From assembly GCA_029938505.1 (NCBI GenBank), contig JAOZUV010000004.1, forward strand, positions 1-18,449: a stretch of 18,449 bases of DNA, in the 5' to 3' direction. This document shows positions 2,037 through 18,018 of the stretch, piece by piece. Numbering within the stretch: position 1 is the stretch's first letter; the number at the start of each line of letters is the position of its first letter. The stretch is from Bacteroidales bacterium. GTDB taxonomy: Bacteria > Bacteroidota > Bacteroidia > Bacteroidales > GCA-2711565. The notes beneath the pieces were generated by a model, which was given only the letters and a program-made list of their open reading frames with translations, ran no database searches and was not told where the DNA came from. The position numbers were made by a program, and so were the translations under genes.

Positions 2037-2037
2037 T

Positions 2038-5085: not shown

Positions 5086-5360
5086 ATTACTACTCCTTGC
5101 ATATTATTTTTGACCCAAATTTTTTGATCTTTCTTTGTAAGGTGTTTGCATTTAACTTTTCTGGTGCCAGATAAACCCAAAGAACAAAATTCAAGCTTTG
5201 CACAACTCTCTTTTCCGGGTTCATTTTCATGAAGTCTGCCGTGAATGCATTGAGTAAGGCAGTGTTCGCTTTTTTTAGGAACATTACAAATCACTGCTTT
5301 GCCTATGTAAGCTTCCAGTCTTTGTTTTTTATTAGATATTTTATTAGGTATTTTATTCAT
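5082..5360 (-). CDS. Unknown cysteine-rich protein, 92 aa
   Basis: Six cysteines in the central part (IGKAVICNV, EHCLTQCIHG, ESCAKLEFC, KVKCKH) suggest a bound metal, probably zinc. Net basic. The ATG at 5360 is used: it overlaps the end of the zinc-ribbon gene by 8 nt, the same overlap seen at several junctions in this operon. A TTG at 5393 in the same frame would start inside that gene and has no better ribosome-binding site. The Shine-Dalgarno for the ATG is weak (AAGA), so translation probably depends on the upstream gene. Function unknown. Confidence 0.6.
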   Translation of the reverse strand: MNKIPNKISNKKQRLEAYIGKAVICNVPKKSEHCLTQCIHGRLHENEPGKESCAKLEFCSLGLSGTRKVKCKHLTKKDQKIWVKNNMQGVVI

Positions 5361-5493
5361 TGGAATCTTTTGACATATCTTTAGTACGCTCAATATTCCA
5401 ATACTTTGATTTACACGATGGACATAAAGTTGGCTTTTTAGGACTTCTTGGATACCATGTGTGTTGACATCTTAAACATTTTAATTTTTTCAT
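5353..5493 (-). CDS. Small zinc-ribbon protein, 46 aa, first gene of the left operon
   Basis: The frame reads MKKLKCLRCQHTWYPRS, continues with CPSCKSKYW and ends at a TAA. The CxxC...CxxC pattern (C6, C9 and C24, C27) with the HTWYPR segment is the usual layout of short zinc-ribbon proteins found in many phages; such proteins may bind DNA or act as adaptors. AGAGAG precedes the ATG. It lies about 25-30 nt downstream of a clear leftward promoter and overlaps the next gene by 8 nt, so it leads the operon. It is short enough to be missed by common length cut-offs. Confidence 0.8.
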   Translation of the reverse strand: MKKLKCLRCQHTWYPRSPKKPTLCPSCKSKYWNIERTKDMSKDSNE

Positions 5494-5524
5494 TTTATTC
5501 TCTCTAATTATTTACATTATTTGC

Positions 5525-5554
5525 ATACTATCATAAGTAAGAATTGAATGTCAA
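5525..5554 (-). promoter_or_regulatory. Leftward sigma70-type promoter of the left operon
   Basis: On the minus strand a perfect TTGACA (5549-5554) is followed after 18 nt by TAGTAT (5525-5530). The expected transcript start is about 25 nt before the zinc-ribbon ATG at 5493, leaving room for the AGAGAG ribosome-binding site. Confidence 0.7.
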
Positions 5555-5590
5555 ACTAAAATAAAGTATTATTAAATTACTACAAAATTA

Positions 5591-5619
5591 TTGATTTCTT
5601 AGTGTTCATGTGATATATA
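5591..5619 (+). promoter_or_regulatory. Candidate rightward promoter for the winged-helix gene
   Basis: TTGATT (5591-5596), a 17-nt spacer and TATATA (5614-5619). It lies in the intergenic region between the two divergent genes and would give an mRNA leader of roughly 140 nt before the ATG at 5765. The -35 and -10 boxes each deviate from consensus, so this is a moderate call. Confidence 0.45.
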
Positions 5620-5664
5620 AGTCTTGTTTTTCATATTTATCTTTGATAGACTTGTTATTGAAAA

Positions 5665-5761
5665 AGGTGGGAATAGATGCAGCTTTATAAACTGTATCGA
5701 AAATTGGCTTTGTTAACCAACTTTTCCACCTCCTTTAAATGACACACCGTAACAAAGGTGA
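5665..5761 (+). promoter_or_regulatory. Structured mRNA leader with possible ribosome-site switch
   Basis: In the leader of the rightward gene, AGGTGGGAA (5665-5673) can pair over 9 bp with TTTCCACCT (5723-5731). The latter segment, read on as CCACCTCCTTT, matches the anti-Shine-Dalgarno 3' end of 16S rRNA. It can instead pair, by CACCT or CCTTT, with the gene's own ribosome-binding site AAAGGTG (5754-5760). The two pairings exclude each other. The pairing is seen in the sequence; a regulatory role is inference. Confidence 0.35.
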
Positions 5762-5764
5762 AAT

Positions 5765-6427
5765 ATGATTAACAAAAAAAATCAATCCAAAGAAGATCTC
5801 TATTTCGAAAGAATTCAAAATAAAAATCACAAAGAAATTCGCTTTGTGGATTCTAATTTTTTCAGAACAAAAAATCCGCTACAAGAATTAAGAAAAGTCG
5901 GCAAAGAATTTAATAAAATTGTTGAGTATGAAACAAACGGCATTGAATACTCTGTAATTTTAAAATACGGAATTACAAAAATATCGGCAGATTTTGAATA
6001 TCAATATATAATGTTTCGAAAGTTTATACGAAATAATGGTATTCCTCATTATGATATTTTACAAGAATTAAAATTATGTGGCGCTTATGCATTAAAGAAT
6101 TGTATATTTTGGAAAAATGCCACTGGGGAGTTTGCAATGAGACGAAATATATTTGAAGAATTAATTCAAAATAAAAAAGATGAAGAAAAATTAAGCCCGT
6201 CTGAATTTATTTTACTAAGTCTCTATAAAGCCTTCTCCTCTACTCCAAATAAAGCTTCAAATGGTTCTGAAGGAGGTATTACAGGTTTGAGTGATATAAG
6301 GGCTTCAGAGCTTTTATCCTGTACTTCTAAAACAATTCAACGCAATAGAATAAAGCTTATGAACAAAGGGTTAGTTGAAGAAATCTATTTTGATGGTCGG
6401 TTCAGGAAATTAAGAATAAACATTTAA
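5765..6427 (+). CDS. Winged-helix-type DNA-binding protein (regulator or replication initiator candidate), 220 aa
   Basis: The only rightward gene. The C-terminal 78 residues fit a winged helix-turn-helix: LSPSEFILLSLYKAF (143-157), then SDIRASELLSCTSKTIQRNR (176-195) as the helix-turn-helix, then KGLVEEIYFDGRFRKLRI as the wing. The N-terminal 140 residues are mixed alpha/beta and very basic and are not recognised. AAAGGTGAAAT precedes the ATG. The gene is divergent from the left operon and reads into a 1-kb repeat-rich non-coding region that starts 4 nt after its stop. An orphan DNA-binding protein next to clustered inverted repeats could be a plasmid-type initiator or a repressor acting on those repeats; neither is proven. 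Confidence 0.75.
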   Translation: MINKKNQSKEDLYFERIQNKNHKEIRFVDSNFFRTKNPLQELRKVGKEFNKIVEYETNGIEYSVILKYGITKISADFEYQYIMFRKFIRNNGIPHYDILQELKLCGAYALKNCIFWKNATGEFAMRRNIFEELIQNKKDEEKLSPSEFILLSLYKAFSSTPNKASNGSEGGITGLSDIRASELLSCTSKTIQRNRIKLMNKGLVEEIYFDGRFRKLRINI

Positions 6428-6431
6428 CATA

Positions 6432-6488
6432 TATAGTTAGACATCTGTGTCTCTCATAAGTATAGTGTGACACAGATGTCTAACTATA
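6432..6488. repeat. Perfect 20-bp inverted repeat (copy 1)
   Basis: Left arm tatagttagacatctgtgtc (6432-6451) and its exact reverse complement (6469-6488) with a 17-nt spacer. Each arm holds a nested GACA-N4-TGTC half-palindrome (6440-6451 and 6469-6480). It begins just after the stop of the winged-helix gene, so it could act in transcript ending, although no T-run follows it. Confidence 0.9.
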
Positions 6489-6496
6489 GAAAAGAC

Positions 6497-6569
6497 CTTA
6501 GTCTTATGTTAGAAACAATACTATGTATTATTTCAGTATGATTAACATCATACACAACATAAGATTAAG
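6497..6569. repeat. Nested inverted repeats forming a three-way-junction-like fold
   Basis: A 14-bp outer stem, cttagtcttatgtt (6497-6510) with aacataagattaag (6556-6569, one G-T pair), encloses two inner hairpins: aatac/gtatt (6517-6529) and gtatgat/atcatac with a 4-nt loop (6536-6553). Confidence 0.75.
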
Positions 6570-6575
6570 TTCTTA

Positions 6576-6602
6576 TAGACAATTGCATTTTGCAATTGTC
6601 TA
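6576..6602. repeat. 12-bp hairpin with 3-nt loop, followed by conserved tail copy 1
   Basis: tagacaattgca (6576-6587), ttt, tgcaattgtcta (6591-6602): a perfect stem, followed at once by an A-run and the conserved tail element. Confidence 0.85.
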
Positions 6603-6646
6603 AAAAAGGCTTTGCTGTTGTTCAAGGGATTTTCAGTATATGAATC
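6603..6646 (+). repeat. Conserved tail element, copy 1
   Basis: A-run, GGCTTTGC, then the 19-nt core tgttgttcaagggattttc (6616-6634) and AGTATATGAAT. The core is identical at 6829-6847 and 7271-7289. Strand is assigned by convention only. Confidence 0.85.
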
Positions 6647-6668
6647 AAAATATTGCGAAAAGATTAAT

Positions 6669-6716
6669 TAATCCAAATGAATTTTATTTAAGAAAACACT
6701 AATTAATCTTTATTAA
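6669..6716. repeat. AT-rich repeat pair, copy 1
   Basis: A 25-nt segment, TAATCCAAATG followed by AATTTTATTTAAGA (6669-6693), matches 6921-6945 at 23 of 25 positions. It is followed by gaaaacactaattaatct (6692-6709), which recurs exactly at 6899-6916. The order of the two blocks is reversed in the second copy. A 12-bp palindrome, gattaattaatc, lies at 6662-6673. Confidence 0.75.
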
Positions 6717-6747
6717 TTTTAATATACGTCTGAAGCGTATATTAAAA
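6717..6747. repeat. Perfect 12-bp inverted repeat
   Basis: ttttaatatacg (6717-6728) and cgtatattaaaa (6736-6747) with a 7-nt spacer. It is AT-rich and could form a cruciform or unwinding site. Confidence 0.8.
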
Positions 6748-6756
6748 ACTCAAACA

Positions 6757-6815
6757 TATAGTTAGACATCTGTGTCCCACTATATGCTTATTAAAGACAC
6801 AAATGTCTAACTATA
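6757..6815. repeat. 20-bp inverted repeat (copy 2, one mismatch), followed by tail copy 2
   Basis: The left arm (6757-6776) is identical to the left arm of the copy at 6432. The right arm (6796-6815) differs from a perfect complement at one position. The 19-nt spacer is unrelated to that of copy 1. Conserved tail copy 2 follows directly. Confidence 0.9.
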
Positions 6816-6858
6816 AAAAGGGGCTCGTTGTTGTTCAAGGGATTTTCAGTACATGAAT
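6815..6858 (+). repeat. Conserved tail element, copy 2
   Basis: AAAAAGGGGCTCGT, the 19-nt core (6829-6847), then AGTACATGAAT. It matches copy 1 through both the core and the following 11 nt, with one difference in that stretch. Confidence 0.85.
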
Positions 6859-6898
6859 AAAATATAACAAAACTTCTTGACGCAAAGATTTTATTTGC

Positions 6899-6945
6899 GA
6901 AAACACTAATTAATCTATTTTAATCTAAATGAATTTTATATAAGA
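6899..6945. repeat. AT-rich repeat pair, copy 2 (order reversed)
   Basis: The 18-nt block at 6899-6916 precedes the 25-nt block at 6921-6945; in copy 1 the order is the opposite. A short CGCAAA/TTTGCG inverted repeat lies just upstream (6881-6899). Confidence 0.75.
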
Positions 6946-6946
6946 T

Positions 6947-6973
6947 TTAAGATCGTAGTGACTACGATCTTAA
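6947..6973. repeat. Perfect 13-bp palindrome built on the ctacgatctt motif
   Basis: ttaagatcgtagt (6947-6959), one central G, actacgatcttaa (6961-6973). It carries two of the four ctacgatctt motifs in the region and is followed by an A-run, as are the other hairpins. Confidence 0.85.
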
Positions 6974-6980
6974 AAAAGCA

Positions 6981-7048
6981 CAAACTACGATCTTGAAATA
7001 TATAAGGTATTGATTTTATTGAATGTAAAATTTTAAGATCGTAGTTTG
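6981..7048. repeat. Perfect 14-bp inverted repeat with 40-nt spacer, same motif
   Basis: caaactacgatctt (6981-6994) and aagatcgtagtttg (7035-7048). With the adjacent palindrome this gives four ctacgatctt motifs within about 100 bp, as two inverted pairs. Confidence 0.85.
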
Positions 7049-7236
7049 ATAAAAAATTCAAAATCTATATCATCAATTATTTCAAGAGGTTACACGCAAT
7101 TTTCAAAATTAAAGAGAATTCTTAGTAGAAAAACATATATTCTATGCATATATAAAAGAACTTTTCTGATCAGCTATCACTTCGTTCAGCGTTATGTTAT
7201 CACATCCCTTTAGCTTACTCAGAATAGTTTCTTACA

Positions 7237-7289
7237 GCGTTGCAAGCAACGCATTAAAAAAGGGCTTCGCTGTTGTTCAAGGGATTTTC
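7237..7289 (+). repeat. GC-rich short hairpin and conserved tail element, copy 3
   Basis: gcgttgcaagcaacgc (7237-7252) is a 16-nt palindrome-like hairpin. It is followed by ATT, an A-run, GGGCTTCGC and the 19-nt core (7271-7289). Beyond the core the sequence diverges from copies 1 and 2 (TTGATGAATCG). Confidence 0.8.
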
Positions 7290-7296
7290 TTGATGA

Positions 7297-7408
7297 ATCG
7301 TTTTCTAAGCTGATTTAATAAGCTTTGAATCAATCTGATACTCTGCATTGAATTATCTCTGAATATCATTGTATCATTGCATCATTGCTTAACAGCTTAG
7401 AAAACGAT
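7297..7408. repeat. 16-bp inverted repeat bracketing 80 bp with short tandem repeats
   Basis: atcgttttctaagctg (7297-7312) and its exact complement (7393-7408). The interior holds three head-to-tail 8-bp units, ATCATTGT, ATCATTGC and ATCATTGC (7365-7388). It lies immediately downstream of the HU gene in that gene's reading direction. Confidence 0.85.
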
Positions 7409-7416
7409 AGAGTTAG

Positions 7417-7440
7417 AGTTGTTAAAGTTGTTAAAGTTGT
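7417..7440. repeat. 9-bp tandem repeat next to the HU stop codon
   Basis: agttgttaa is repeated at 7417-7425 and 7426-7434, followed by a partial third unit. It abuts the HU stop codon at 7441. Confidence 0.7.
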
Positions 7441-7713
7441 TTATTCGTTGATATGATTTTTCAATCCCGAAGCAGGTTTAAATTTTACAATCTTTTTTGC
7501 TGCAATTTTTATTGCTTTTCCTGTTGCCGGATTTCTTCCCATTCGTTCTGCTCTTTCTGTTACTGTAAATTTTCCGAATCCATAAAAAGTAACATCTTCT
7601 CCTTCTTGCAAAGATGTTTTAATTTCCTCCAAGATTGCATCCAGAATGTCTTTTGTTGCAACTTGTGTGAATCCTGTTGTTTCTGCTACATTTTTAATTA
7701 GTTCTTTTGACAT
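7441..7713 (-). CDS. hup: HU-family DNA-binding protein
   Basis: 90 aa, the normal length for HU/IHF. It begins MSKELIKNVAETTGF and contains the beta-arm signature GFGKFTVTERAERMGRNP followed by ATGKAIKIAAKK, including the RNP tip that inserts into DNA. The C-terminus (KFKPASGLKNHINE) is typical. HU binds and bends DNA non-specifically and helps origin opening and recombination. AAAGGAAATT precedes the ATG. It is the last gene of the right leftward unit and borders the 1-kb repeat region, where it might act architecturally. HU versus IHF subunit cannot be decided by eye, but HU is likelier for a single gene. Confidence 0.95.
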   Translation of the reverse strand: MSKELIKNVAETTGFTQVATKDILDAILEEIKTSLQEGEDVTFYGFGKFTVTERAERMGRNPATGKAIKIAAKKIVKFKPASGLKNHINE

Positions 7714-7749
7714 GGTAATTTCCTTTGTTGGTTATGGGTTATTGATTAC

Positions 7750-9084
7750 TTACCTGTTTTGCACATCATCAAGAGTATCTGTATCTGATCTATCTGGGCG
7801 AAGAATTAAGTTTCTGGGAAGATATAAAGAATAAACTCCAGGTTTACTTTTATCCGAAATAAGACCCTCAAATTCAAGGGTAGCTATCATTCCGATTCTT
7901 GGTGCCCAGTCTTGCAATCTCTCTTCATCAGTGAACCCGCTTACAGAAACAAAGATCTTTTCATCATCTGAAGCAAGTTGAACTGATCCAAGACAATCTT
8001 TGAATCGAGTATCTTTCTTTCCAAATTTCCATCCAACTATTCTTAGCTCAATGTCTGAAATATTTTTTAGTTTAATCATATCATTGGAAGTTGTGTTTTT
8101 CCATTTCGCATTAAGATTTTTTATAATAGCTCCTTCTTTGCCCTCATTCCTCATTCTTTTATAAAACTCCCTTGCTTCTTTTAACGAATGTACTTTTTTG
8201 GATGTAATAAGAGAGAATAAATCTTTATTTCCCATTTCTTGTACAAATTTTGCGGCTCTAAATAATCTTTTTGAATAACTTATGTTACATGATCCATTCC
8301 AAAAATCTTTTACTGGTATAGCATCCCACAATTTAATTATGGTGTGTTTTGCTTTATCACTTGGGGCAGCATTTTGGATCATTTTATTTAGAATACCATT
8401 TCCTGTTTTTCTTGGTAAAATTTTACCTTCAATTTTAATTAATAATTCTCCCATAAAAACTGTGTTATAATATTCTTTTGGTAATTTTTTAAAAAAGTCA
8501 TGTAAATGATCCATTTGATAAACTTCTTTTCCATTTCTTGATCTAAATATAATTTTTCCTTCTTTGTCAATGATGATATTAACAAAACTTCCATCAGCCT
8601 TTTCTTGCGCAATTGCCCCTTTGGTAAAGTCAATGTTTGAAATCTTTTTTTCAGTGCTGCATCGAGCATACGGTATTAATTTTAATAGACCTGAATAAGC
8701 GGAATTTATCGTTTTTCCGGAAAAGCCAGCTTTCGCATCTTTGTTGACGATTTTTTTTACCACTTCGTAGGTTTCTTTATCCATTGAAGCAAGTCGGCAT
8801 AATTCGTGTTTGTCAGCATTTGAAGCCCCTTTTTGATTAGATAATTTTTCAAGAAAATTAAATAATTCTGTATTGGATGATTTGCTGGAATACAGACTTG
8901 ATTGGGAAAGGAATGGGGGAAGCGCATTAATTTTAAAATGATGTTCATCAGAGTACATTAATTCAATAACGTGACGAAAAATTTCATCATTGTGAAGCTT
9001 ATCAGACAATATTGATATCTTAGCATTAGTTGAGCCTGTATCTTTGATAAGCAGTATGTCAGAGTATATATTTTTAAGAGACAT
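7750..9084 (-). CDS. ATP-dependent DNA ligase (T4 gp30-like)
   Basis: 444 aa. Seals nicks using ATP through a covalent lysine-AMP. Motif I is KADG with the nucleophile K162 (AQEKADGSF). Motif III includes FMGELL (210-215, E213), motif IV is EGAIIK (317-322) and motif V is MIKLK (336-340). The N-terminal ~150 residues align in pattern with the T4 ligase N-terminal domain (KDTGSTNAKISIL..., VNKDAKAGFSGKTIN). The C-terminal ~100 residues are the OB-fold. AAAGGAAG precedes the ATG. It lies downstream of the recombination genes, consistent with sealing Okazaki fragments and repair products. T4 gp30 is 487 aa, so this version is slightly shorter. Confidence 0.93.
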   Translation of the reverse strand: MSLKNIYSDILLIKDTGSTNAKISILSDKLHNDEIFRHVIELMYSDEHHFKINALPPFLSQSSLYSSKSSNTELFNFLEKLSNQKGASNADKHELCRLASMDKETYEVVKKIVNKDAKAGFSGKTINSAYSGLLKLIPYARCSTEKKISNIDFTKGAIAQEKADGSFVNIIIDKEGKIIFRSRNGKEVYQMDHLHDFFKKLPKEYYNTVFMGELLIKIEGKILPRKTGNGILNKMIQNAAPSDKAKHTIIKLWDAIPVKDFWNGSCNISYSKRLFRAAKFVQEMGNKDLFSLITSKKVHSLKEAREFYKRMRNEGKEGAIIKNLNAKWKNTTSNDMIKLKNISDIELRIVGWKFGKKDTRFKDCLGSVQLASDDEKIFVSVSGFTDEERLQDWAPRIGMIATLEFEGLISDKSKPGVYSLYLPRNLILRPDRSDTDTLDDVQNR

Positions 9085-9095
9085 AATTTCTTCCT

Positions 9096-9356
9096 TTACC
9101 CCATATATTGATCTATTATTTGTTTTTTAGTAATCTCCAAAAGAGCAATTATTTCGGAAGCACTCATACCTGCTTGGTTAAATGACCATGAATATTTATC
9201 ATCATTATCATCAAGTCCTATAACTATGAGTTTTTTACATTCTTTGAATGCCCCTCTTTTTCTGATATCATTTTCAAGGCAATCTCTTAGACATTCTTCG
9301 GGAGAAATTAAAGTTGCATCATTTTTTAGATACCCTATACTTGTTATTTTGCTCAT
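9096..9356 (-). CDS. Unknown small alpha/beta protein, 86 aa
   Basis: Pattern KKLIVIGLDDNDDKYSWSFN, then AGMSASEIIALLEITKKQII: a beta strand, an acidic loop and a C-terminal helix. It resembles small phage proteins that I have seen only as hypothetical. AAAGGAAATTT precedes the ATG. It sits 11 nt before the ligase gene. Function unknown. Confidence 0.65.
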   Translation of the reverse strand: MSKITSIGYLKNDATLISPEECLRDCLENDIRKRGAFKECKKLIVIGLDDNDDKYSWSFNQAGMSASEIIALLEITKKQIIDQYMG

Positions 9357-9389
9357 TTTAAATTTCCTTTATTTAGTTTTATTGTTCTT

Positions 9390-9968
9390 TTAAAATGGAA
9401 GATTATCTACTATCGGAAATTTTAAACAGTCGGCCGTACTGAGCATATCTAAAGTATGGATGAATAAAACAATTGGGGGATAATCATCAAATCGGAATAT
9501 TTCACCTTTTGGAATGCTCTTGCTCCACTGACCAGAGTGGTACCTTACTCCTATAATCATCATCTCCATTTCAGCCTCAGAAAAATGTTTCAGCAAGGCA
9601 TTTCTATTTTTCTCCAATAAATCAGCCATGCCCCGATCATGATAATTGTATGTGTGTGGTGTATTTCCCTTCTTGCCGTATTTCATACAGTCGTGTAATA
9701 CAACAGACATGAAATAAATATCATTTTGGGTTGAAACTAATTCTCCTCCAAACATACGAATGATTTTAGATGCAGAAAATAACATCTCAAATACATGGTG
9801 AGCATTAGAAGGAATTGAACCGTCTTCTTTCTTATGATATTTACCAGATGATGAAGTAGGTCTATCCCAAATGTCTACCATCTTTCCTTCAATAAACATT
9901 AAGAGTTCAAACCCTTTCGGGGTCATACTTTCTTTAGCTAAATCAATAATTGCCTCTGTATAGTTCAT
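9390..9968 (-). CDS. HD-domain metal-dependent phosphohydrolase
   Basis: 192 aa, with the HD-superfamily metal-binding layout: H57/H58 (SNAHHVFEM), H92-D93 (VVLHDCMKYGK), H110-D111, H144 (RYHSGQWS) and D174 with D180 (HTLDMLSTAD). HD proteins in phages include nucleotidases, dNTP or cyclic-nucleotide hydrolases and 5'-deoxynucleotidases; which one applies is not visible. The ATG directly follows the stop of the preceding gene, with a GGGGGA purine run as the likely ribosome-binding site. Among replication genes, a role in nucleotide metabolism is likeliest, but degradation of a signalling nucleotide in anti-defence is also possible. Confidence 0.8.
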   Translation of the reverse strand: MNYTEAIIDLAKESMTPKGFELLMFIEGKMVDIWDRPTSSSGKYHKKEDGSIPSNAHHVFEMLFSASKIIRMFGGELVSTQNDIYFMSVVLHDCMKYGKKGNTPHTYNYHDRGMADLLEKNRNALLKHFSEAEMEMMIIGVRYHSGQWSKSIPKGEIFRFDDYPPIVLFIHTLDMLSTADCLKFPIVDNLPF

Positions 9969-10151
9969 TTATACGTCCCCCAAATCTAAATCAATATACT
10001 TAACATCATTTAATGGGTAGCATCTAAGAATTTTTCCATAGTAAAAACTAATAACTCTTTCATGTTCCCCAAAAGGACAATCAGGAAGTTTTTTATTTTC
10101 AAATATTTCCCCAGCCTTCATCACAATTGTTGCGGTTTGCTCTTTTGCCAT
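9969..10151 (-). CDS. Unknown small protein, 60 aa
   Basis: Begins MAKEQTATIVMKAGEIFENK and contains CPFGEHERVISFYYGKI; it appears beta-rich. AAGGAGAAG precedes the ATG. Its stop abuts the start of the HD-domain gene, so the two are probably co-translated. No function recognised. Confidence 0.6.
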   Translation of the reverse strand: MAKEQTATIVMKAGEIFENKKLPDCPFGEHERVISFYYGKILRCYPLNDVKYIDLDLGDV

Positions 10152-10173
10152 TTTACTTCTCCTTGTTAAGTGA

Positions 10174-10866
10174 TTACTTTTTAAATTCCGGGGTTATCCC
10201 GAACTCTGCAAATAGAGTTTCTAATCCTGCCGTAAGAGTTTTGTCCTTATCTTTTACAACTCCTCTCTTGGTAGTTTTCTGTTTATAAATCAAGACTTCT
10301 GGTATTTTCTTCTTTGGATATTTCTCTTTGAATGCTTTAATTACTTTGTTGATACTGGTCTTTTTGAGTTTCTTGACTTTTGGTTTTTCCGCAGGGTGCA
10401 GATAGTTCAAATTTGTCATAGGGGGGTTTTCAATAAAATCAGCAAGATTGCGTAAAAATTCAGGTAATGTAATGTCCGTTTTATGCAGACCAGTTCTTAT
10501 GAATGAATTGGTAATTTTTCCTTCTACTACATTTGCAGATCTATGAATTACGCCTCTAATTATTCCGGCTTCGTCAAGTTTTCCAAGATTATTTGCATTA
10601 TTCGTGTGATTGTGATCCACAACCATATCAGTAGTATCATATTTTATTTTTAATATCGGGCAAATTTCATTTTGGTTTTTATGAAAGTGCTTCCTAATCT
10701 TTGCTAATTCATTCTGTTTGATTTGTCTCAGTTTTCTGATCTTCGGGGGATCAATACCAAGTTCCCCGCCATGCCCATTAATACACACATCTCCAGAAAA
10801 AGTTTCAAATTGAGGCTTTTTGCATATTGGACACAATAGTCCATTATATTTCTTCTTTGCTACCAT
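10174..10866 (-). CDS. Endonuclease VII-like Holliday junction resolvase with altered zinc site
   Basis: 230 aa. The core matches T4 endonuclease VII: DHNH at 84-87 for DHDH, GIIRGVIHRSANVVEG (101-116) for VRGLLCNLCNAAEG, a later SFIRTGL and LPEFLRNLADFIE helix, and NYLHP for NIHP. T4 endonuclease VII (157 aa, dimer) cuts branched DNA before packaging. Three of the four zinc cysteines of the T4 protein are missing: only C69 remains, and CNLC has become HRSA. An additional N-terminal motif, CPIC (12-15) with C28 and H32, could form a new zinc site. A Lys-rich C-terminal extension of about 60 aa is also extra. The ribosome-binding site is weak. Junction cleavage is inferred from the family. Confidence 0.8.
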   Translation of the reverse strand: MVAKKKYNGLLCPICKKPQFETFSGDVCINGHGGELGIDPPKIRKLRQIKQNELAKIRKHFHKNQNEICPILKIKYDTTDMVVDHNHTNNANNLGKLDEAGIIRGVIHRSANVVEGKITNSFIRTGLHKTDITLPEFLRNLADFIENPPMTNLNYLHPAEKPKVKKLKKTSINKVIKAFKEKYPKKKIPEVLIYKQKTTKRGVVKDKDKTLTAGLETLFAEFGITPEFKK

Positions 10867-10868
10867 GA

Positions 10869-11189
10869 TTAATTTCGGTCATGTTTAAATCTAATATTAT
10901 TGGCAGAACAAATTTCTTCCAGAAATTTACTTAGTGGTTTGTCCATGTGATCTTTTATAACACTTACACTTTCGCCTGCCTTTTGTACTGCTTCAGCAAG
11001 ATTAAGATAAGTTTCAATTATCTTGTCAACCTTATGTTCTCTAAATTTCTTTGTTGGTTTTTTACACCTGCCTTCTTTGATAGATCTTTTTTGATAACAT
11101 GTGCAGCATACCTGTAAATCATGGTCAATAATACGTGTTGCTATTTTACTACACCCAGGGATATCGCATTCGTTCACCTTTGTAACCAT
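10869..11189 (-). CDS. Small putative zinc-binding protein, 106 aa
   Basis: N-terminal cysteine cluster ECDIPGC...VCCTCYQKRS...GRC (within about residues 8-42) suggests a treble-clef or zinc-finger fold. The rest is helical and Lys-rich. The ATG at 11189 is chosen because AAAAAGGAG lies 7 nt upstream; an in-frame ATG at 11249 would begin inside a hairpin-rich leader. The gene stands directly before the endonuclease VII-like gene. Function unknown, nucleic-acid binding likely. Confidence 0.7.
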   Translation of the reverse strand: MVTKVNECDIPGCSKIATRIIDHDLQVCCTCYQKRSIKEGRCKKPTKKFREHKVDKIIETYLNLAEAVQKAGESVSVIKDHMDKPLSKFLEEICSANNIRFKHDRN

Positions 11190-11282
11190 TGTATTCTCCT
11201 TTTTGTGAGGAGGGACAGGGCAGGGATGTAGAAAATTAAAAAAAGACATCCCAATCGGCCGATCCGAACCTGTCCCAAACTT
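11190..11282 (-). promoter_or_regulatory. Hairpin-rich leader with possible ribosome-site occlusion
   Basis: On the minus strand, GGGACAGG (11269-11276) pairs with CCTGTCCC (11212-11219). Nested inside are GGGATGT (11246-11252) and ACATCCC (11223-11229), enclosing a T-rich loop. A 10-bp palindrome, ATCGGCCGAT, lies between the left arms. Next, CTCCT (11208-11212) can pair with the AGGAG ribosome-binding site (11196-11200) across a 7-nt loop. It could be an attenuator or a translational control site; no protein or ligand is known. Confidence 0.45.
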
Positions 11283-11681
11283 TTAATCTTTTAAATCAAA
11301 TACCTTGTTAATGTTTTGTGCAAGAACTTTAATTTCTTTTCCGGTGGGTGTCAATCTGATGCGAACATAATTGTGACGTTTGGTAGATTTAAAAGTCTTC
11401 CAACTCCCATCACCCATTCCCTGTTTTATGATAGATCCGTCAAAACAAAACCCGAACCCTACAATCCATCCTGTAGTAAACCCTATTTTAGGAGTGAATT
11501 GTGCTGTTTTCCATTTAACAGGAACTACTTCAGGATAACCCATAACATTAGAATAGAAAAGATCTGAAATTGTTTTTTCTTTGATTTGTTTCCTGCTGTA
11601 TGTTCTATGAAATTCACCTTTAACGAATCTACACAATTTGCCCATGAAAGGAATCATATCTTTCTGTTTAGGGTGTTTCAT
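11283..11681 (-). CDS. Unknown protein, 132 aa
   Basis: Basic protein with a Gly/Phe-rich centre (IGFTTGWIVGFGFCFDGSII), then Arg/Lys-rich strands (RHNYVRIRLTPTGKEIKVL); probably beta-rich. GGTGAATAT precedes the ATG. It overlaps the upstream gene by 4 nt (ATGA). No motif recognised. A hairpin-rich leader separates it from the next gene. Confidence 0.65.
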   Translation of the reverse strand: MKHPKQKDMIPFMGKLCRFVKGEFHRTYSRKQIKEKTISDLFYSNVMGYPEVVPVKWKTAQFTPKIGFTTGWIVGFGFCFDGSIIKQGMGDGSWKTFKSTKRHNYVRIRLTPTGKEIKVLAQNINKVFDLKD

Positions 11682-11968
11682 ATATTCACCGCATCACTGC
11701 CCCATATATTTCTTTTTTCCTTACTCTTGAATGACTTTCCAGTTTTAGTGTACTTTACTCCATAATAAACAGCTTCAGGATAGTCTCTCGAAAAACCATA
11801 AGCAACGGCGATTTTTTCAACTTTTATGGTACCAAGATGATCTTTTACAAAATCACCTATTTCTACTGAGGTATTGCTGAGAACGAATTCCTTGTCAAGA
11901 TTGTATTGCTTTTTTTCAGCTTCTTTTCTGAGTTCTGTTTTTTTATTTAAATACTCTTCTTTTAGCAT
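11678..11968 (-). CDS. Small protein with helical N-terminus and SH3-like C-terminus, 96 aa
   Basis: The first ~27 residues form a charged helix (MLKEEYLNKKTELRKEAEKK). The remainder has a beta-barrel look: VEIGDFVKDHLGTIKVEKI, then YPEAVYYGVKYTKTGKSFKS. A recurring type in phage early regions, without known function. AAGGAG precedes the ATG. Confidence 0.65.
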   Translation of the reverse strand: MLKEEYLNKKTELRKEAEKKQYNLDKEFVLSNTSVEIGDFVKDHLGTIKVEKIAVAYGFSRDYPEAVYYGVKYTKTGKSFKSKEKRNIWGSDAVNI

Positions 11969-12123
11969 TATAGAGTCTCCTTAATAATCGTTCATCGGAA
12001 AATATGATATAGACTAAAACTTATCTTGATTGTTCATAATCATCTTTTAATCGTTTAAATTCTTTGTTTAAGAGCATTTTAAACTTTTTTAGTATCAGTG
12101 TATCAATTAAAATTCTATCAGTC

Positions 12124-12453
12124 TTAATCAGTCAATTCAACGACTTCAGATTTCAGTTTTTTCATTAAATCTTTGGTTGATCCAATGATACTACTTATTT
12201 TTCTAACGTGGTTTGAAAGTTTTAGAAATCTTGTTTCCAATGCTTCAAAAGTTTCAATATTTTCAGAGGATAGTTCGTTTAGAATAAGATCAGAAAAAAG
12301 TTTTTTAAAAAGTATTTCTAATGAAGGATAATATTTACTATTTACTTCATATGGTTCCCCTTTGTTTTTACCCTTTTCTGAAATTTTTAAATCAAATATG
12401 ATAAACTGCCGTTCATCGGCTCGAAGATATACATTCTTGTAAAGTTTAATCAT
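12124..12453 (-). CDS. Unknown protein, 109 aa
   Basis: The N-terminal half appears beta-rich (IKLYKNVYLRADERQFIIFD); the C-terminal half is a long amphipathic helical region (LETRFLKLSNHVRKISSIIG and onward) that may form a coiled coil. AAAGGAAAAG precedes the ATG. It directly follows the flap endonuclease gene. Family not recognised. The 155-nt gap downstream contains only one very short open frame. Confidence 0.65.
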   Translation of the reverse strand: MIKLYKNVYLRADERQFIIFDLKISEKGKNKGEPYEVNSKYYPSLEILFKKLFSDLILNELSSENIETFEALETRFLKLSNHVRKISSIIGSTKDLMKKLKSEVVELTD

Positions 12454-12464
12454 TTACTTTTCCT

Positions 12465-13358
12465 TTATTTTAATTTTAAAATTTGTTTCCATGGATGTAT
12501 ATTCTCAATTATTGCCTCGAATCGGTATTCTATGCATAGCTTTATAAAATTACGTAAGCTTGTATGATCAGGACGAATTACATAATCAGGAGTGCCTTTG
12601 AATGGTAGAATCACAAGAGCTTTGTTCCTGTTGATGATATCTTTGCCGGCACGACTTTCAATTGCTTTATAAGCCTGGGTAGTAGGCTTCATTTTGCCTG
12701 TAATATAATTCAATGCACCTTTTTCGGCAACATGCATTTGCTTTTTTGTAGGGTCTGTTTTTGGTATTTCAACACCTTTGACATTATCGGAGGAACAACC
12801 ACCAATTGCCTTAACTCTTTTCCACATTTTTGGTTCAATATTAAACTCGCTTTTGAAATCTGTAATGGTGTAGTAATTGTTTGTTTTGGGATTCAGGACA
12901 CATACGTTATTGGTAAGAAGTTGATACATGTCATGATCGGTAGAGCATATAATTATTTGGGCATTTGGATATTTTTTGCAAATTACACCAATGGAATCAT
13001 CAGCCTCAAATCCTTCTGAGCCGAATAGATTTCTATATCCTATTGTTGGAAGAATATAATCAATTATTTCTTTAAATTGAGGCCTTGCTAATTCATCTAA
13101 TTCAATTTGTTTTTGAGTTCTATTTTGTCCCCGTTTCTCTTTGTACAGACTATACATATCTTTTCTTTTAGATGAATGGCTATCAAGGGCAAAGACAATA
13201 GAGTTCGCTCTTGTTTTCTTTAGAAGAAAATTTAATTTGAGAAGGAATCCGTAAATTAAGAACGTTTCTTTATCTTTTTCTGTTAATCTATTTTTGCCTA
13301 AAGAAAATTTGATAACATGGCCCACTGACAAAAAATCAATAATGAGAATTCTATTCAT
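12465..13358 (-). CDS. 5'-3' exonuclease / flap endonuclease (T4 RNase H type)
   Basis: 297 aa. Structure-specific nuclease that removes RNA primers and 5' flaps behind the replication fork. The acidic metal-binding residues are all visible: D8 (LIIDF), D59 (FALDSHSSKRK), E118, D120 and D121 (GFEADDSIG), D141 and D143 (STDHDMYQLL), and the helix-3-turn-helix GGCSSDNVKGV (186-196, with D191). Length is close to T4 RNase H (305 aa). AGGAATAAATT precedes the ATG. A hairpin terminator lies just upstream, so expression may be lower than that of the SSB/recombinase genes before it. It probably acts with the SSB and ligase of the same unit. Confidence 0.9.
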   Translation of the reverse strand: MNRILIIDFLSVGHVIKFSLGKNRLTEKDKETFLIYGFLLKLNFLLKKTRANSIVFALDSHSSKRKDMYSLYKEKRGQNRTQKQIELDELARPQFKEIIDYILPTIGYRNLFGSEGFEADDSIGVICKKYPNAQIIICSTDHDMYQLLTNNVCVLNPKTNNYYTITDFKSEFNIEPKMWKRVKAIGGCSSDNVKGVEIPKTDPTKKQMHVAEKGALNYITGKMKPTTQAYKAIESRAGKDIINRNKALVILPFKGTPDYVIRPDHTSLRNFIKLCIEYRFEAIIENIHPWKQILKLK

Positions 13359-13373
13359 AATTTATTCCTGTAA

Positions 13374-13395
13374 AGGGGGCTACAAAAAGCCCCCT
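13374..13395 (-). terminator. Hairpin terminator or attenuator
   Basis: On the minus strand, AGGGGGCT pairs perfectly with AGCCCCCT across a 6-nt loop, followed by TTTA. It lies between the acidic-protein stop and the flap endonuclease start. The T-tail is short, so read-through is likely; it may reduce rather than stop downstream transcription. Confidence 0.6.
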
Positions 13396-13427
13396 AAGAT
13401 TAAAAATTAAATCAGATGCTCAAGGGA

Positions 13428-14006
13428 TCAATCATCCTCCCATTCCTCATCAGACCATTCCTCATCGCTGTCATCGTCTGCATCTTCTTCCTCAAATAAT
13501 TCATCAATGACAGCAGTTCGGAGATCGTTGATTTTTTTGAATTTTTTGGGATCAAGTTCCAGTTCTTCATCGGTGATCAATTCAATGAGTTCGTTCCTTT
13601 TCATCTTTTTGATATCATCTTCAGTGATGTCCTCTTCATCATCAGCTTCATCATCAGCTTCATCATCAGCTTCATCATCATCAGCTTCATCATCATCTTC
13701 ATCAGAAGCTTCATCAGCTTCATCTTCAGCTTCATCAGCTTCATCAGCTTCATCAGATCCGGCAAGACGATCAAATAGTTCGTCCAGTTTTGGTTCCAGA
13801 ACTTCATAGATCTCATCAATCATTTCCGGTACATCTACACTATCTTTGATATTTTCAGAAAGTGTCAGAGCAACTTTCTCTTTGCCAAAATCGGAAGAAA
13901 TGCCCACTGATACAGTCAACCTTCTATCTTTCAAGAATACTGCTTCGATTGTTTTCTTTGTTGCAACTTCAGTCTTTTTTGTTCCTGTTTTTTTACGAAT
14001 AGCCAT
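13428..14006 (-). CDS. Acidic repeat protein with possible SAP/HeH-like segment, 192 aa
   Basis: Three parts. Residues 1-20 are basic (MAIRKKTGTKKTEVATKKTI). Residues 20-80 look folded, with beta strands then a helix (LTVSVGISSDFGKEKVALTL, VPEMIDEIYEVLEPKLDEL). Residues 84-125 are an Asp/Glu/Ala low-complexity stretch made of EADD-type repeats. Residues 128-170 (ITEDDIKKMKRNELIELITD and LRTAVIDELFEEE) resemble a helix-extension-helix SAP/HeH motif. The last 20 residues are again acidic with two Trp. AAGGAGATT precedes the ATG. It follows the recombinase gene. A DNA-mimic or SSB/recombinase-partner role is possible but not shown. Confidence 0.7.
   Translation of the reverse strand: MAIRKKTGTKKTEVATKKTIEAVFLKDRRLTVSVGISSDFGKEKVALTLSENIKDSVDVPEMIDEIYEVLEPKLDELFDRLAGSDEADEADEAEDEADEASDEDDDEADDDEADDEADDEADDEEDITEDDIKKMKRNELIELITDEELELDPKKFKKINDLRTAVIDELFEEEDADDDSDEEWSDEEWEDD
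13633..13757. repeat. Coding minisatellite of tcatca/gcttca units
   Basis: On the plus strand, imperfect 9-15 bp units built from TTCATCATCAGC run for about 125 bp and encode the acidic repeat of the overlapping gene. Such an array is prone to copy-number change in steps of three bases. Confidence 0.8.
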
Positions 14007-14028
14007 TTTTGAATCTCCTTAAAAATTA

Positions 14029-15126
14029 TTAATATTTTCGCTTCCTGTTGGATCTCAATTTTTCAATTACATTGTCATATGTTATTTGACACAGAGCAAA
14101 TAATTCATCTTCCAGATTATTGTCTTCAATATGCATAACCAATTTGGACAGTGTCATTTTTTCAGCGAAATTTTTACTATTTATCGCTGCTTTTGTTCCT
14201 GACCAATTTCCTTCATCAACCATGAAAATGATACATGAAGTTATATTATCAATACCATAATCAAATTGAATGGGAAATGTTGCCTCTCCGTGTCTGCCTG
14301 TTAATTTGTTCTTTGTAATCTTGGCTTGAACATTAGTCGTTATTGTTCGTTTGCCTTTTTTCTCTTTTTTCTGACAGGCTAACCAAATCTCATGTGCTGC
14401 ATAAAATTTAAGAGCTTTGCCGCCTGATCTTACCTTCGGAGTAAATCTTGCCCCAAATCCAATGTTATCTCTTGTTTGTGAAATAATAATAAGCATAGAA
14501 CCATGTTCACAATGATCAGATAAATCTTGAGTTCTTTGAGAAAACATAGCTGAAGCCATTTTAGCTTTTCCATCTCCATAACTTCCAGTTGTTTCATTTC
14601 CTTTTTCTCTTTTTCTTCTGTTCTCTTTATCTTTATCAACTGCTGCTTCTGATGTTAATGCATCAAATGAATCCAGAACATATATGAAAGGTTTATCCCC
14701 TTCTAATGATCTTGCCAGATTATCATTTAAATCCTCAATAGTTTTTGAACGAATATCCAATTCAATCCTGTCACTAACTTTTTTACCAAAAAGATAAGTA
14801 AGATCAAATTCATTAGCTGCTTCAACATCATCGAAAATGAATCTAAAATCATCAAATCTTGATTTTAATGAACATTCAGCAAAAACAGTCAGAGCAAACA
14901 AGGTTTTGCCTGCGTGAGAATCTCCGATTAAATTTACCAGTTTACCGAGTTTGAATGCACCTTCAATCCTTCCTGAACATTCAAGATTAAACGTTGTTGA
15001 TCCTGTGGGGACTAAGATCAAAGGATCAACTGTTTTAGTTCTTTCGATAACTGCATAATCTTCTACATTCTTAGCAAACTGATCTGTAATTTTTTTAGTC
15101 TTACTTATCCTTTTAAGTTTGCCCAT
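14029..15126 (-). CDS. uvsX: UvsX/RecA-like recombinase
   Basis: 365 aa. ATP-dependent strand-exchange protein. Walker A GDSHAGKT is at 68-75, and Walker B is FIYVLD at 147-152 with the following SFDAL. The DNA-binding L2 region reads SQTRDNIGFGARFTPKVRSG (216-235). The centre carries a charged insert (KDKENRRKREKGNETTG). Length is near T4 UvsX (about 390 aa). AAGGTAAAT precedes the ATG. It lies directly behind the SSB gene and near the UvsY-like gene, the same partners as in T4 recombination. The C-terminus ends in a basic RSNRKRKY. The main alternative is another phage RecA-family ATPase, which would not change the general role. Confidence 0.88.
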   Translation of the reverse strand: MGKLKRISKTKKITDQFAKNVEDYAVIERTKTVDPLILVPTGSTTFNLECSGRIEGAFKLGKLVNLIGDSHAGKTLFALTVFAECSLKSRFDDFRFIFDDVEAANEFDLTYLFGKKVSDRIELDIRSKTIEDLNDNLARSLEGDKPFIYVLDSFDALTSEAAVDKDKENRRKREKGNETTGSYGDGKAKMASAMFSQRTQDLSDHCEHGSMLIIISQTRDNIGFGARFTPKVRSGGKALKFYAAHEIWLACQKKEKKGKRTITTNVQAKITKNKLTGRHGEATFPIQFDYGIDNITSCIIFMVDEGNWSGTKAAINSKNFAEKMTLSKLVMHIEDNNLEDELFALCQITYDNVIEKLRSNRKRKY

Positions 15127-15131
15127 GATAT

Positions 15132-16073
15132 TTACCTTTTACGGGTTCTTTTTCTTTTGAGTTTTTTCTCATCTGAAGGTTTGCGATCAGTTGTCCGTTT
15201 TCTTTTTTTCTTTTTGTCATTGGAACCAAAATCGCTGTCATCAATATCTTCATCTTCATTTTCATCTTCCCAGGGATCTTTTTCATCAGGCTCTGGTTCA
15301 TCAAGAAGCTTCATTTTTTTCAGAGTGCCCCGAAATTCTTTTTCAATTTCTTCATAGTCTGGATGCATATTGATTACACTGTCCAGCGGGAAAGTCATAT
15401 CGAGAATCTTATCGGGAATAGGAGATTCTCTTTCAATTAAACGATGACCAATGTGTGTAGTGTTTGTCATGCCTGCGCCTTTACGTTCCCAGGCAAGAGA
15501 TCTTCCTGAATCTGGATCGGAGAATTTAACGTATCCTCCTCCCTTGGGTAATTTTGATATGGCTTCAATGTTTGCTTCCATAAAATAGTGAGAAGCCTCA
15601 TGAATTTGAATGCCCTTTTTTTCTTCCTCCCTGCTATCATGAACCCACAGAAAGTAAACAACCCGATGTTTTGCAACGAGATTTTTCCAATCTTCTTTTT
15701 CAAGTTTGTTTGCTTTCATAAATTCACAGATCGGACAAGGAAGACCAAAGTTTTCATATGGACAAACATACGGTTTAAGCATTTCTCCTACATTCGTATG
15801 AACGAATAAATCCATAATATAATCTAACTTACCTTCAGGAGTTACCGGCTGTAGACGTTCATCTAACGGCATATCTGGTCCTGCTTCAAAGGGGATTATA
15901 TCAACAATATGCTCACCCTCTTTGCAAAACCAAAAATTTATTCCTTCAGGAACTTTATCCTTTAAGAATATTGTGGGAAATCTCCCGCCTCCAGTAGATT
16001 TGGTACCTGTATTGTGCCTATTACCAAGACTTTTAGCGCCCTTGTTTTTTGCCATACGATCACGGAACCCCAT
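15132..16073 (-). CDS. Single-stranded DNA-binding protein, T4 gp32-like
   Basis: 313 aa. Residues 1-30 are basic and Gly-rich, as in the cooperativity region of gp32. The zinc motif H92...C104...C113-x2-C116 (CPYENFGLPCPICEF) closely follows the H-C-C-C spacing of gp32. The core OB-type region reaches about residue 250. The tail is unusual: an acidic stretch (about 256-286) is followed by 27 residues rich in Lys and Arg (287-313), whereas gp32 ends acidic. AGGAGAATTACGT precedes the ATG. It stands between UvsY-like and UvsX-like genes, the expected working partners. It coats ssDNA during replication and recombination. Confidence 0.85.
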   Translation of the reverse strand: MGFRDRMAKNKGAKSLGNRHNTGTKSTGGGRFPTIFLKDKVPEGINFWFCKEGEHIVDIIPFEAGPDMPLDERLQPVTPEGKLDYIMDLFVHTNVGEMLKPYVCPYENFGLPCPICEFMKANKLEKEDWKNLVAKHRVVYFLWVHDSREEEKKGIQIHEASHYFMEANIEAISKLPKGGGYVKFSDPDSGRSLAWERKGAGMTNTTHIGHRLIERESPIPDKILDMTFPLDSVINMHPDYEEIEKEFRGTLKKMKLLDEPEPDEKDPWEDENEDEDIDDSDFGSNDKKKKRKRTTDRKPSDEKKLKRKRTRKR

Positions 16074-16129
16074 ACGTAATTCTCCTATTTAATTGTTAAC
16101 CTTAATTGGGACAATGCCCTTAATTGATT

Positions 16130-16633
16130 TTATTTTCGTCTTTTTCTCTTTTTGGTTGTTTTATTTAATGATTTTTTCTGTGCCAGATAAGCTCCTTTTT
16201 GTTTTAAATTATCAATATCTCTTTGCGTATTTCTTGGCTCTGCATAAAATCCACCGATTTTTAAAGATGTAAGATTCCCAAGAGCTAATTTTCTATGCTC
16301 AAATGCAACCTTTACACCCAATAATAAATTAGCATCTTTGGAAGCATTGATGAATTTTAATTCTGCATCTTTATATTTTTTTGATTTGGCAATATACTCT
16401 TTGATGGCAGGTTCAGTAGGCTTTGAATCAAAATATTTTTTCCAATCTTTTTTGATAGTTGAGTACATTTGAGCATAGACAAGATCTGTTTTTGCTTTCA
16501 TCATATCTTTTTCATGAACTGCTTCAGCATGTTGTTCTGCGTAATACAAAAAATGAGAAGCTTGCTCAATCCATTCATTTACCAGATCAAACTCATTGAT
16601 TTTAATGTCAGAATTATAATCTCTTATATGCAT
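16130..16633 (-). CDS. Probable UvsY-like recombination mediator, 167 aa
   Basis: An all-helical protein (FDLVNEWIEQASHFLYYAEQ... KTDLVYAQMYSTIKKDWKKY ... AFEHRKLALGNLTSL) whose pattern resembles T4 UvsY (137 aa) and related phage mediators that load UvsX on SSB-coated DNA. The match is by pattern and by neighbourhood (SSB and UvsX genes follow), not by a defined motif. It ends with a basic tail, KTTKKRKRRK. The ATG overlaps the clamp loader stop (TAATG), with GGAGAAG upstream. Another helical replication accessory protein is the alternative. Confidence 0.55.
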   Translation of the reverse strand: MHIRDYNSDIKINEFDLVNEWIEQASHFLYYAEQHAEAVHEKDMMKAKTDLVYAQMYSTIKKDWKKYFDSKPTEPAIKEYIAKSKKYKDAELKFINASKDANLLLGVKVAFEHRKLALGNLTSLKIGGFYAEPRNTQRDIDNLKQKGAYLAQKKSLNKTTKKRKRRK

Positions 16634-18018
16634 TATTCTTCTCCGGCTCCAAAGATAGATTCGTAGCAGGCCATTGTCAGCCCTGCTTTTCCACTATCAA
16701 AGAAGTTTTCTTTAAATGGCTGCATAATAAAAAATGTATCATCCCCGCCATTATTTAACAATACCGAGTTAAAATATCCAAGAATTGGTCTACGGGCAGA
16801 TTCACCATCACCTTTGAATTCCTTGAGAAGTTTTTTTACTTTAGCCCATTTTGTTTTGGGGGGCATATTATATGATATAAGCGTTCGGCAGATATCAATA
16901 ATCTCAGACTCTCCTGTTCCCACTGATTTTAAAGTATTCAGTGCCCTTTCAACGTCATCCATGTCAATTACTTGATCCAGAAGTTTTAATGCTATTCCAG
17001 CAGATCCATCAGAAAGTTCAATTATTTTATCTCTAACTGCTGGAGTAATTGATTCTCTTTTTTCTTTCTTTAGAATCATTCTCATAAGTTTGTGAAGATC
17101 CGCATCTTTCAGAGATTCAAGTTCGTATGAATGACAACGCCTTTTTAGAGTTGGTTTAAGTACTTCTGGATTTGTCGTACATAAAATCCAATGCATATAG
17201 GAGGGAGGTTCTTCAAGGGATTTAAGGAGTGCTTCTTGGGCAGTCTTGGTTAACATATGGCAATTATGCACCATATTTCCATTTGCAATATATGAATGAT
17301 TTGTTTTTATCTGCAAATCATAAAATTTTACAAAGCCCTGATTTCTTTCTTTATCTCCAATAATACTTGAGAAAGATTCATCATTATCTCCTCGTTTGTA
17401 AATTTCAACACCACACACCCTTTGAATTCCTTGTAATTTATCTTGTTCACTATATTTTACAAGACGTATTTTTGTCAAGTCTTTTGCTTTAATCCATTTT
17501 TTATTGTTATAATATTCATGATCTTCTGAACAAAATGTGTGAGTTCCATCAGATTTATTTACTTTTACAACTCTGTTTAACGCAACTTTATTTATGAAGA
17601 TTTTTTCAACTTCATCAGTTCCGTTTAAATTATTAACAATATCGCCAATGTTAATATTATCTATTCTTATATTCCCATTATTAGTAAGAACTGACGTATC
17701 AGCGGAGAAGCATTCATCGAGAAGAAATACTTTTCTATCGCCGTAAGGAGTAAATTTCATATCATTTATAAGTTTTCTTATACCGTCTATACCCCTATCA
17801 TCTGCGGCATTTAATTCTTTCCAGTCAACATCTTTGCATTTCAAAGTACTTTTAACAATACGGGCAAGGGTTGTTTTCCCAGTACCTCCAGGACCAGTGA
17901 ACAGGAATGCGCTTGGTGGATTTTCTCTTTTCAGTAATGTTTGCAAACTGGATACCACATCTTTATTTCCAACGAATGTTTTGAATGATTTTGGCCTATA
18001 CTGTGTCTGGAGACTCAA
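16633..18018 (-). CDS. Sliding clamp loader ATPase subunit (T4 gp44/RFC type) interrupted by an intein
   Basis: 461 aa precursor, about 311 aa after splicing, close to T4 gp44 (319 aa). AAA+ motifs: conserved start QTQYRPKSFKTFVGN, Walker A GPGGTGKTT (42-50), Walker B KVFLLDE (96-102) continued after the intein by CHMLTKTAQEALLKSLEEPP, sensor 1 CTTN, and LKRRC, where the SRC arginine finger normally stands. It opens the sliding clamp and loads it on primed DNA. The start is TTG at 18018, right behind the previous stop (TAATTG), with GAGGA upstream; no ATG fits the conserved N-terminus. A small partner subunit (gp62) was not found in the window. Activity depends on intein removal, because the insert splits Walker B from the adjoining helix. 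Confidence 0.93.
   Translation of the reverse strand: MSLQTQYRPKSFKTFVGNKDVVSSLQTLLKRENPPSAFLFTGPGGTGKTTLARIVKSTLKCKDVDWKELNAADDRGIDGIRKLINDMKFTPYGDRKVFLLDECFSADTSVLTNNGNIRIDNINIGDIVNNLNGTDEVEKIFINKVALNRVVKVNKSDGTHTFCSEDHEYYNNKKWIKAKDLTKIRLVKYSEQDKLQGIQRVCGVEIYKRGDNDESFSSIIGDKERNQGFVKFYDLQIKTNHSYIANGNMVHNCHMLTKTAQEALLKSLEEPPSYMHWILCTTNPEVLKPTLKRRCHSYELESLKDADLHKLMRMILKKEKRESITPAVRDKIIELSDGSAGIALKLLDQVIDMDDVERALNTLKSVGTGESEIIDICRTLISYNMPPKTKWAKVKKLLKEFKGDGESARRPILGYFNSVLLNNGGDDTFFIMQPFKENFFDSGKAGLTMACYESIFGAGEE
17263..17712 (-). other. Mini-intein (150 aa) at the Walker B site of the clamp loader
   Basis: Residues 103-252 of the precursor. Block A starts at C103 (CFSADTSVLTNNG). Block B is SDGTHTFCSEDHEYY with S164-x-x-H167, followed by KKWIKAKDL. 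Block F is VKFYDLQIKTNHSYIANGN, and block G ends MVHN (penultimate H251, N252), with C253 as the +1 residue. All residues for class 1 splicing are present. There is no LAGLIDADG or other homing endonuclease domain; the middle is only a short linker. The insertion between DE and CHML joins into a perfect clamp-loader sequence. To my recollection, cyanobacterial DnaX inteins use an equivalent DE/CHML site. Confidence 0.95.

Follow-up and report, generated by a model that had tools for sequence, protein, structure and literature searches.

Inteins are usually pictured with a homing endonuclease inserted in their own reading frame, splicing and mobility residing on one polypeptide. The gp41-1 intein is naturally split, and the 'fractured genes' ascribed to Dassa (2009) reportedly combine split inteins with a free-standing EDxHD endonuclease. 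Homing nucleases lying out of frame within an open insertion are described (PMC11855218) for HNH elements of actinobacteriophage methylases, which are described there as neither inteins nor introns; the same kind of element is named in a genome announcement (PMC12613952). The EDxHD homing endonuclease I-Bth0305I (PDB 3r3p), which does not overlap an intein, is treated among mobile group I introns in a review (PMC3943268). Here we describe a mini-intein in the phage clamp-loader gene of an 18,449-nucleotide stretch (the window) of a Bacteroidales contig, JAOZUV010000004.1. With a probability of about 0.8, it is a cis-splicing class-1 mini-intein descended from a mobile intein whose endonuclease was encoded in the overlapping +1 frame and was lost by deletion. 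In a literature search, which left some likely sources uncovered, no report was found of an intein with an endonuclease in an overlapping frame.

The precursor gene occupies positions 16633..18018 (minus strand, as do all its parts below) and forms an open reading frame of 461 codons with a TTG start, matching PHROG 5846 with E 8.7e-62. Both profile and fold place its product among DnaX/gp44-like clamp loader ATPases. The TIGR02397 dnaX_nterm profile matches the 461-residue precursor with E 7.9e-47 and 160 bits, under its 250-bit cut-off. According to the translation and alignment, the N-extein comprises residues 1-102 (17713..18018). It contains GPGGTGKT (residues 42-49, 17872..17895), which we take to be the Walker A motif, and ends with FLLDE (residues 98-102, 17713..17727), presumably Walker B, which adjoins the insert. 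The C-extein, residues 253-461 (16636..17262), matches Pfam DNA_pol3_delta2 with E 4.5e-18. The AlphaFold2 (AF2) model of the precursor has a mean predicted local distance difference test score (pLDDT) of 87.0 and a predicted template modelling score (pTM) of 0.56, with strands spanning residues 109-251; fold searches with it return clamp loaders and bear on the extein fold, not by themselves on that of the intein.

The mini-intein itself has 150 residues (103-252, 17263..17712) and lies exactly between the DE of Walker B and CHMLT. The first-pass annotation had proposed an intein with these coordinates, this site and a full set of splice residues; this holds, down to the coordinates. At this place intein-free relatives have, for example, the sequence LLDEAHMLTK, so the junctions are exact, the +1 cysteine standing in place of the A of DEAH. 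All class-1 splice residues are there: C103, S164, H167, H251, N252 and the +1 C253. Cys1 (C103, 17710..17712) and the C-terminal His-Asn (H251 and N252, 17263..17268) are invariant in 31 aligned relatives; in another alignment, three rows with the intein two codons later have gaps at H251/N252, and on direct reading they end with VHN. The S-x-x-H motif of block B (S164-E-D-H167, 17518..17529) retains S or T, and H, in all ten mini-inteins. The +1 cysteine (17260..17262), which opens the C-extein, is replaced by serine in protein P0019; it and H167 are conserved in at least 90% of the 31 relatives. The nearest solved structures by sequence (PDB 6riz, 6qaz, 7cfv) are those of the gp41-1 intein (E 1.6e-5) and the Spl DnaX mini-intein (E 2.3e-4), the latter, like ours, from a clamp-loader gene; the likeness is one of sequence and host gene. 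Judged from its sequence, the insert is probably a class-1 cis-splicing mini-intein.

Pfam and TIGR profile scans found no nuclease family in the intein frame of the 150-residue insert. The earlier claim of an endonuclease-free mini-intein is right; the C-terminal tail of an endonuclease is still readable in the +1 frame. This fossil is an open piece of 42 codons (17331..17456, minus strand) followed by a stop codon (17328-17330). Among 1961 pieces it was the one to match the endonuclease profile (E 3.1e-9, positions 206-234 of 235, the matched part being 17337-17423), the runner-up having E 0.77. Its end coincides with the end of the endonuclease in L001, the viral contig of the long-intein clamp loader P0004, and 86 of 99 bases of its final 33 codons are identical to L001. 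The catalytic residues of the endonuclease fall within the part deleted from the window. Of the seven near-invariant positions in the matched part, two that do not vary among 45 relatives, W236 and R240, are altered, as expected if the enzyme was already gone. Thus the window intein is a deletion derivative. The tail could have been retained because the host frame there encodes the segment preceding the conserved YDL...VHN block, the C-terminal splicing part. Decay, which had also been suggested, applies to the endonuclease and not to the splice residues. The fossil test used the DNA of the window, and a DNA search found no intact mini-intein DNA from other sources; P0005 and P0019 apparently have longer endonuclease remnants at the protein level.

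The long inteins of related proteins have approximately 190-280 residues more than the window intein, of odd composition, and Pfam named no nuclease in this extra segment (precursors L001 and P0006 scanned). In L001, however, a same-strand open reading frame at 4309-5103, in another frame, encodes a protein with paired cysteines and, at its C-terminus, a DUF559 nuclease (E 5.1e-13). With this protein as the sole query, eight loci were found in viral contigs (the L001 contig itself is one of them, and two pairs are near-copies), and in all eight the host frame is open across the whole endonuclease; in L015 it stops just past it. A search with an endonuclease alignment took the best 80 of 327 viral loci and 37 genome loci. 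The endonuclease is nested in the host frame in 106 of 109 loci where it is complete, or in 76 of 78 clusters at 90% nucleotide identity, a threshold that merges near-copies (L001/L008/L024, which are one contig; L010/L011; L014/L015). The phase is constant: in 76/76 nested loci the endonuclease codons lie one base downstream of the host codons (+1). L082, whose contig ends within the gene, is uncovered, yet belongs to a covered cluster. The counts leave aside a partial match (L116) and 24 short bacterial DUF559 genes (L117-L140), none of them in inteins; for these a covering open frame is absent in 20, in another phase in three and in the same phase in one (L139, 141 codons). The two exceptional loci differ in kind. 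L038 (3298-5439) is an otherwise ordinary clamp-loader intein with one host-frame stop inside the overlap, possibly a first step to a split gene, or else a sequencing error. L083 (1513-3370) is a free-standing endonuclease whose gene immediately precedes that of a helicase without an intein; it may act on a rival allele or a neighbouring one.

The nested genes begin just past the N-terminal splicing block; endonuclease domains of inteins occupy one conserved place, according to PMC6801210. Their products have a Vsr-like PD-(D/E)xK fold, and the catalytic set E-D-H-D (E209, D211, H215, D224) is invariant in 45 endonuclease sequences. The inteins follow DE or EE in 69 of the 75 loci where the N-junction could be placed, and the C-junctions over 76 loci are HN-C (61), SN-C (10), HN-S (3) or not found (2). 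By our own profile, 37/76 hosts are clamp-loader-like. Ten hosts scanned with Pfam comprise two SNF2 proteins, seven ResIII/DEAD-type helicases and one clamp loader, with Intein_splicing above cut-off in five. The L001 nuclease also matched 42 annotated phage records. Eight were examined (Vibrio phages CP-T1, 1.088.O, 1.027.O, K391, 159E43-1b and 104E43.1, Pseudomonas phage MR14 and Corynebacterium phage phi673), and in each the match is covered by a single annotated coding sequence in a different frame, labelled helicase, P-loop protein, 'coil containing' or hypothetical protein, without a separate nuclease annotation. As a side observation, the SNF2-type protein of L014 (849-4955) apparently has two inteins: that of Walker A contains an in-frame match to LAGLIDADG_3 (E 2.5e-10), and that of Walker B has the out-of-frame endonuclease. 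LAGLIDADG_3 was matched in L081 too (E 2.8e-6).

Both frames are under selection in the long relatives. Over the 78 loci, 939 host-frame stops would be expected from synonymous shuffles; 28 were found, 27 of them in L083. It is extremely improbable that the overlap is an artefact, one frame being stop-free by base composition or chance. GC-rich loci do expect few stops (3.5 in L112, which is stop-free in 1.7% of shuffles). However, stop-free shuffles make up less than 1% in 75/76 nested loci, the third frame is full of stops, and in the free-standing L083 the host phase contains 27 stops where 28 are expected, which rules out chance openness of the host frame. Nor is the nuclease frame the meaningless one: its codon-position pattern, DUF559 matches and fold rule this out.

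The nested enzyme would be made from a start codon of its own, located within the intein gene. A start preceded by a ribosome-site match of at least five bases was found in 45/76 loci, compared with 22% expected. One could imagine instead ribosomal frameshifting that fuses the endonuclease to the N-terminal half. The single constant phase in all 76 loci would suit this, as would two database proteins, P0151 and P0162, that join N-extein, N-intein and endonuclease in one frame. Yet each is represented by one sequence, the contigs being 2.0 and 2.9 kb long, and may be a broken or 'fractured' form or a frame error; P0162 was not found by a search of viral contigs. With the ribosome-site matches in addition, frameshifting appears quite unlikely.

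The distribution of the intein is patchy. Among the candidates that were scored, a protein search yielded 757 relatives with E values of 1e-5 or lower. From the best 120 a tree of 119 clamp loaders was built, the fragment P0105 being dropped and P0042 scored as another intein. At the insertion site 87 are empty, 21 have a long intein (340-434 residues), ten a mini-intein and one an unrelated intein. The intein-free alleles that the first-pass annotation had proposed to look for are thus abundant, and a fixed intein, one of its two suggestions, is not supported: the window is the sole intein bearer in its smallest well-supported clade of nine, the other eight rows being intein-free. Intein presence requires 15 changes on the tree. 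Mini-inteins require nine (eight forced), and since shuffling the labels gives a similar number (mean 9.7), this is no count of deletions. The extein tree is a quick one, with 41/116 inner branches below 80 and long branches among distant rows. Close pairs tell the same story: the exteins of P0017 (long intein) and P0114 (empty) are 99% identical, and the intein-free L142 has a segment 97% identical to the mini-intein-bearing P0091. P0006, P0042 and P0051, near-identical clamp loaders that group together, have three states: an intein of the nested-endonuclease type after DEAH, a different intein after DE in which Pfam names no nuclease, and an empty site. Inteins two codons further on, after DEAH, also occur in P0005, P0019 and L027. 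The pattern resembles that of a parasite cycling through empty, active and endonuclease-less alleles; a population-level model exists for homing endonucleases where one gene has several alleles (PMC3229294). In another related clamp loader, P0092, an apparent intein was seen in Walker A (GPGG, insert, CGKT), with Walker B intact.

These observations suggest the following history. In the ancestral mobile intein, one stretch of DNA would have served as two genes. The host frame would encode an uninterrupted intein whose middle is a mere read-through linker, and the +1 frame a separate homing endonuclease composed of a zinc finger and an EDxHD/Vsr domain. Cleavage of intein-free Walker B alleles by this nested enzyme would lead to the insert being copied in during repair. 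The window lineage would have lost most of the endonuclease, including the catalytic residues, through an in-frame deletion. The resulting allele would have lost autonomous homing while its target site, still occupied, would be protected from re-invasion. Self-removal of the insert would join DE to CHMLT, producing a clamp loader of 311 residues.

Several observations weigh against this reading. Profile searches, named beforehand as a test of intein homology, gave a divided answer: the C-terminal profile TIGR01443 passes on the insert (21.7 bits, cut-off 15.6), but two of the four intein profile scores miss their curated cut-offs, namely those of the N-terminal profile TIGR01445 (21.0 bits, cut-off 24.5) and Pfam Intein_splicing, PF14890 (27.4 bits, E 3.3e-6, cut-off 35.8). 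The likeness of the fossil arises in part from the two frames sharing DNA, and thus speaks of descent, not of function. Foldseek found no PDB match for the endonuclease at E<=0.001, the best being I-Bth0305I at 2.6e-3. The ribosome-site match is shorter than four bases in 13/76 nested loci, and a five-base match without choice of start occurs in 34/76 only. The viral loci behind the nesting counts are the best 80 of the 327. Finally, of the 21 long inteins in clamp loaders, some were seen as DNA (P0004 as L001 and P0006 as L025 are examples), and for the rest a nested gene is assumed from protein likeness.

Other explanations concern the window's intein itself. The first-pass annotation had raised a timing switch, perhaps redox-sensitive through C103; slow splicing would then usefully delay clamp loading. 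As the insert splits Walker B, no active ATPase is expected before splicing; a review (PMC5874633) reports a preference of inteins for sites of this kind and raises the question of a regulatory role. However, a switch would be kept across orthologues, and 87/119 related clamp loaders lack the insert, including the eight others of the window's clade; of two near-identical proteins one may have it and the other not (P0017/P0114; L142/P0091), and C103 is an ordinary catalytic Cys1, invariant in the family. With nothing seen in its favour beyond the site, a switch is improbable. A gene that is dead in this genome, with an intein that has ceased to splice, is very improbable: loss of the endonuclease places the element past its mobile stage, and two profile scores are under cut-off, but every splice residue and the open 461-codon frame are intact and the gene sits among other replication genes. 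It is somewhat unlikely that the deletion arose elsewhere and the mini-intein arrived by recombination already without its endonuclease. The lack of other inteins in the clade of nine is in accord with such an arrival, as is the partial agreement of intein and extein likeness (Spearman 0.49, 465 pairs). On the other hand, the window's intein and extein are similarly close to those of the long-intein proteins P0004 (0.74/0.73) and P0003 (0.73/0.73), as expected had both travelled together, and no identical mini-intein was found elsewhere.

Among described systems, the long relatives resemble fractured genes in having an EDxHD/Vsr nuclease between the N- and C-terminal intein parts. In fractured genes the host gene is reportedly in two, whereas here host and intein form one open frame, overlapped by the nuclease, in the window and in 76/78 distinct loci; a fractured gene with a split intein was therefore rejected. 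The ShiLan-type insertion (PMC11855218), the closest precedent found, is similar in that a homing-type endonuclease is hidden in another frame, the host frame is open and the distribution in phages is patchy. However, that nuclease is of the HNH type in a 'third frame', no ribosome binding site was seen, and the insertion, having no splicing domain, stays in the protein. Our relatives carry complete inteins and DUF559/Vsr (EDxHD) nucleases in the +1 frame, frequently with a ribosome-site match, at Walker B sites of ATPases, and so are not of that type. Overlapping frames are frequent in actinobacteriophages, according to PMC11855218, and work cited there may already describe part of the present findings.

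The surroundings of the clamp-loader gene (1113-16633) hold a T4-like replication and recombination set, with an ATP-dependent ligase, endonuclease VII, a 5'-3' exonuclease, a UvsX-like recombinase and an SbcC/SbcD-like pair (1113-3126). At 13428-14006 (minus strand) lies the gene of a 192-residue protein that includes a long acidic stretch of Asp-Glu-Ala repeats. The small genes flanking the clamp loader are similar, and in the same order, in L001, as compared by eye.

More generally, the data may point to a class of mobile inteins that is widespread and as yet undescribed. Each would be a complete cis-splicing intein, overprinted in the +1 frame by the separate gene of an EDxHD homing endonuclease, and would spread via Walker B of unrelated ATPases. 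We see the chances of this generalization as evenly balanced. If it is true, the class has reached clamp loaders and SF2 and SNF2 helicases, and splicing and mobility, which here look like two genes on shared DNA, would explain both why annotation misses the nuclease and why the middle of the long inteins looks meaningless. Dozens of cases are defined by sequence, including some from isolated phages, and lend themselves to studies of overprinting, internal initiation and homing. The class would also form a natural bridge from ordinary inteins to fractured genes with split inteins, since a single stop or frame shift would divide the host gene into two intein halves that already have a free-standing endonuclease between them. 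This suggests a concrete route to split inteins; the window would represent the other exit, loss of the nuclease.
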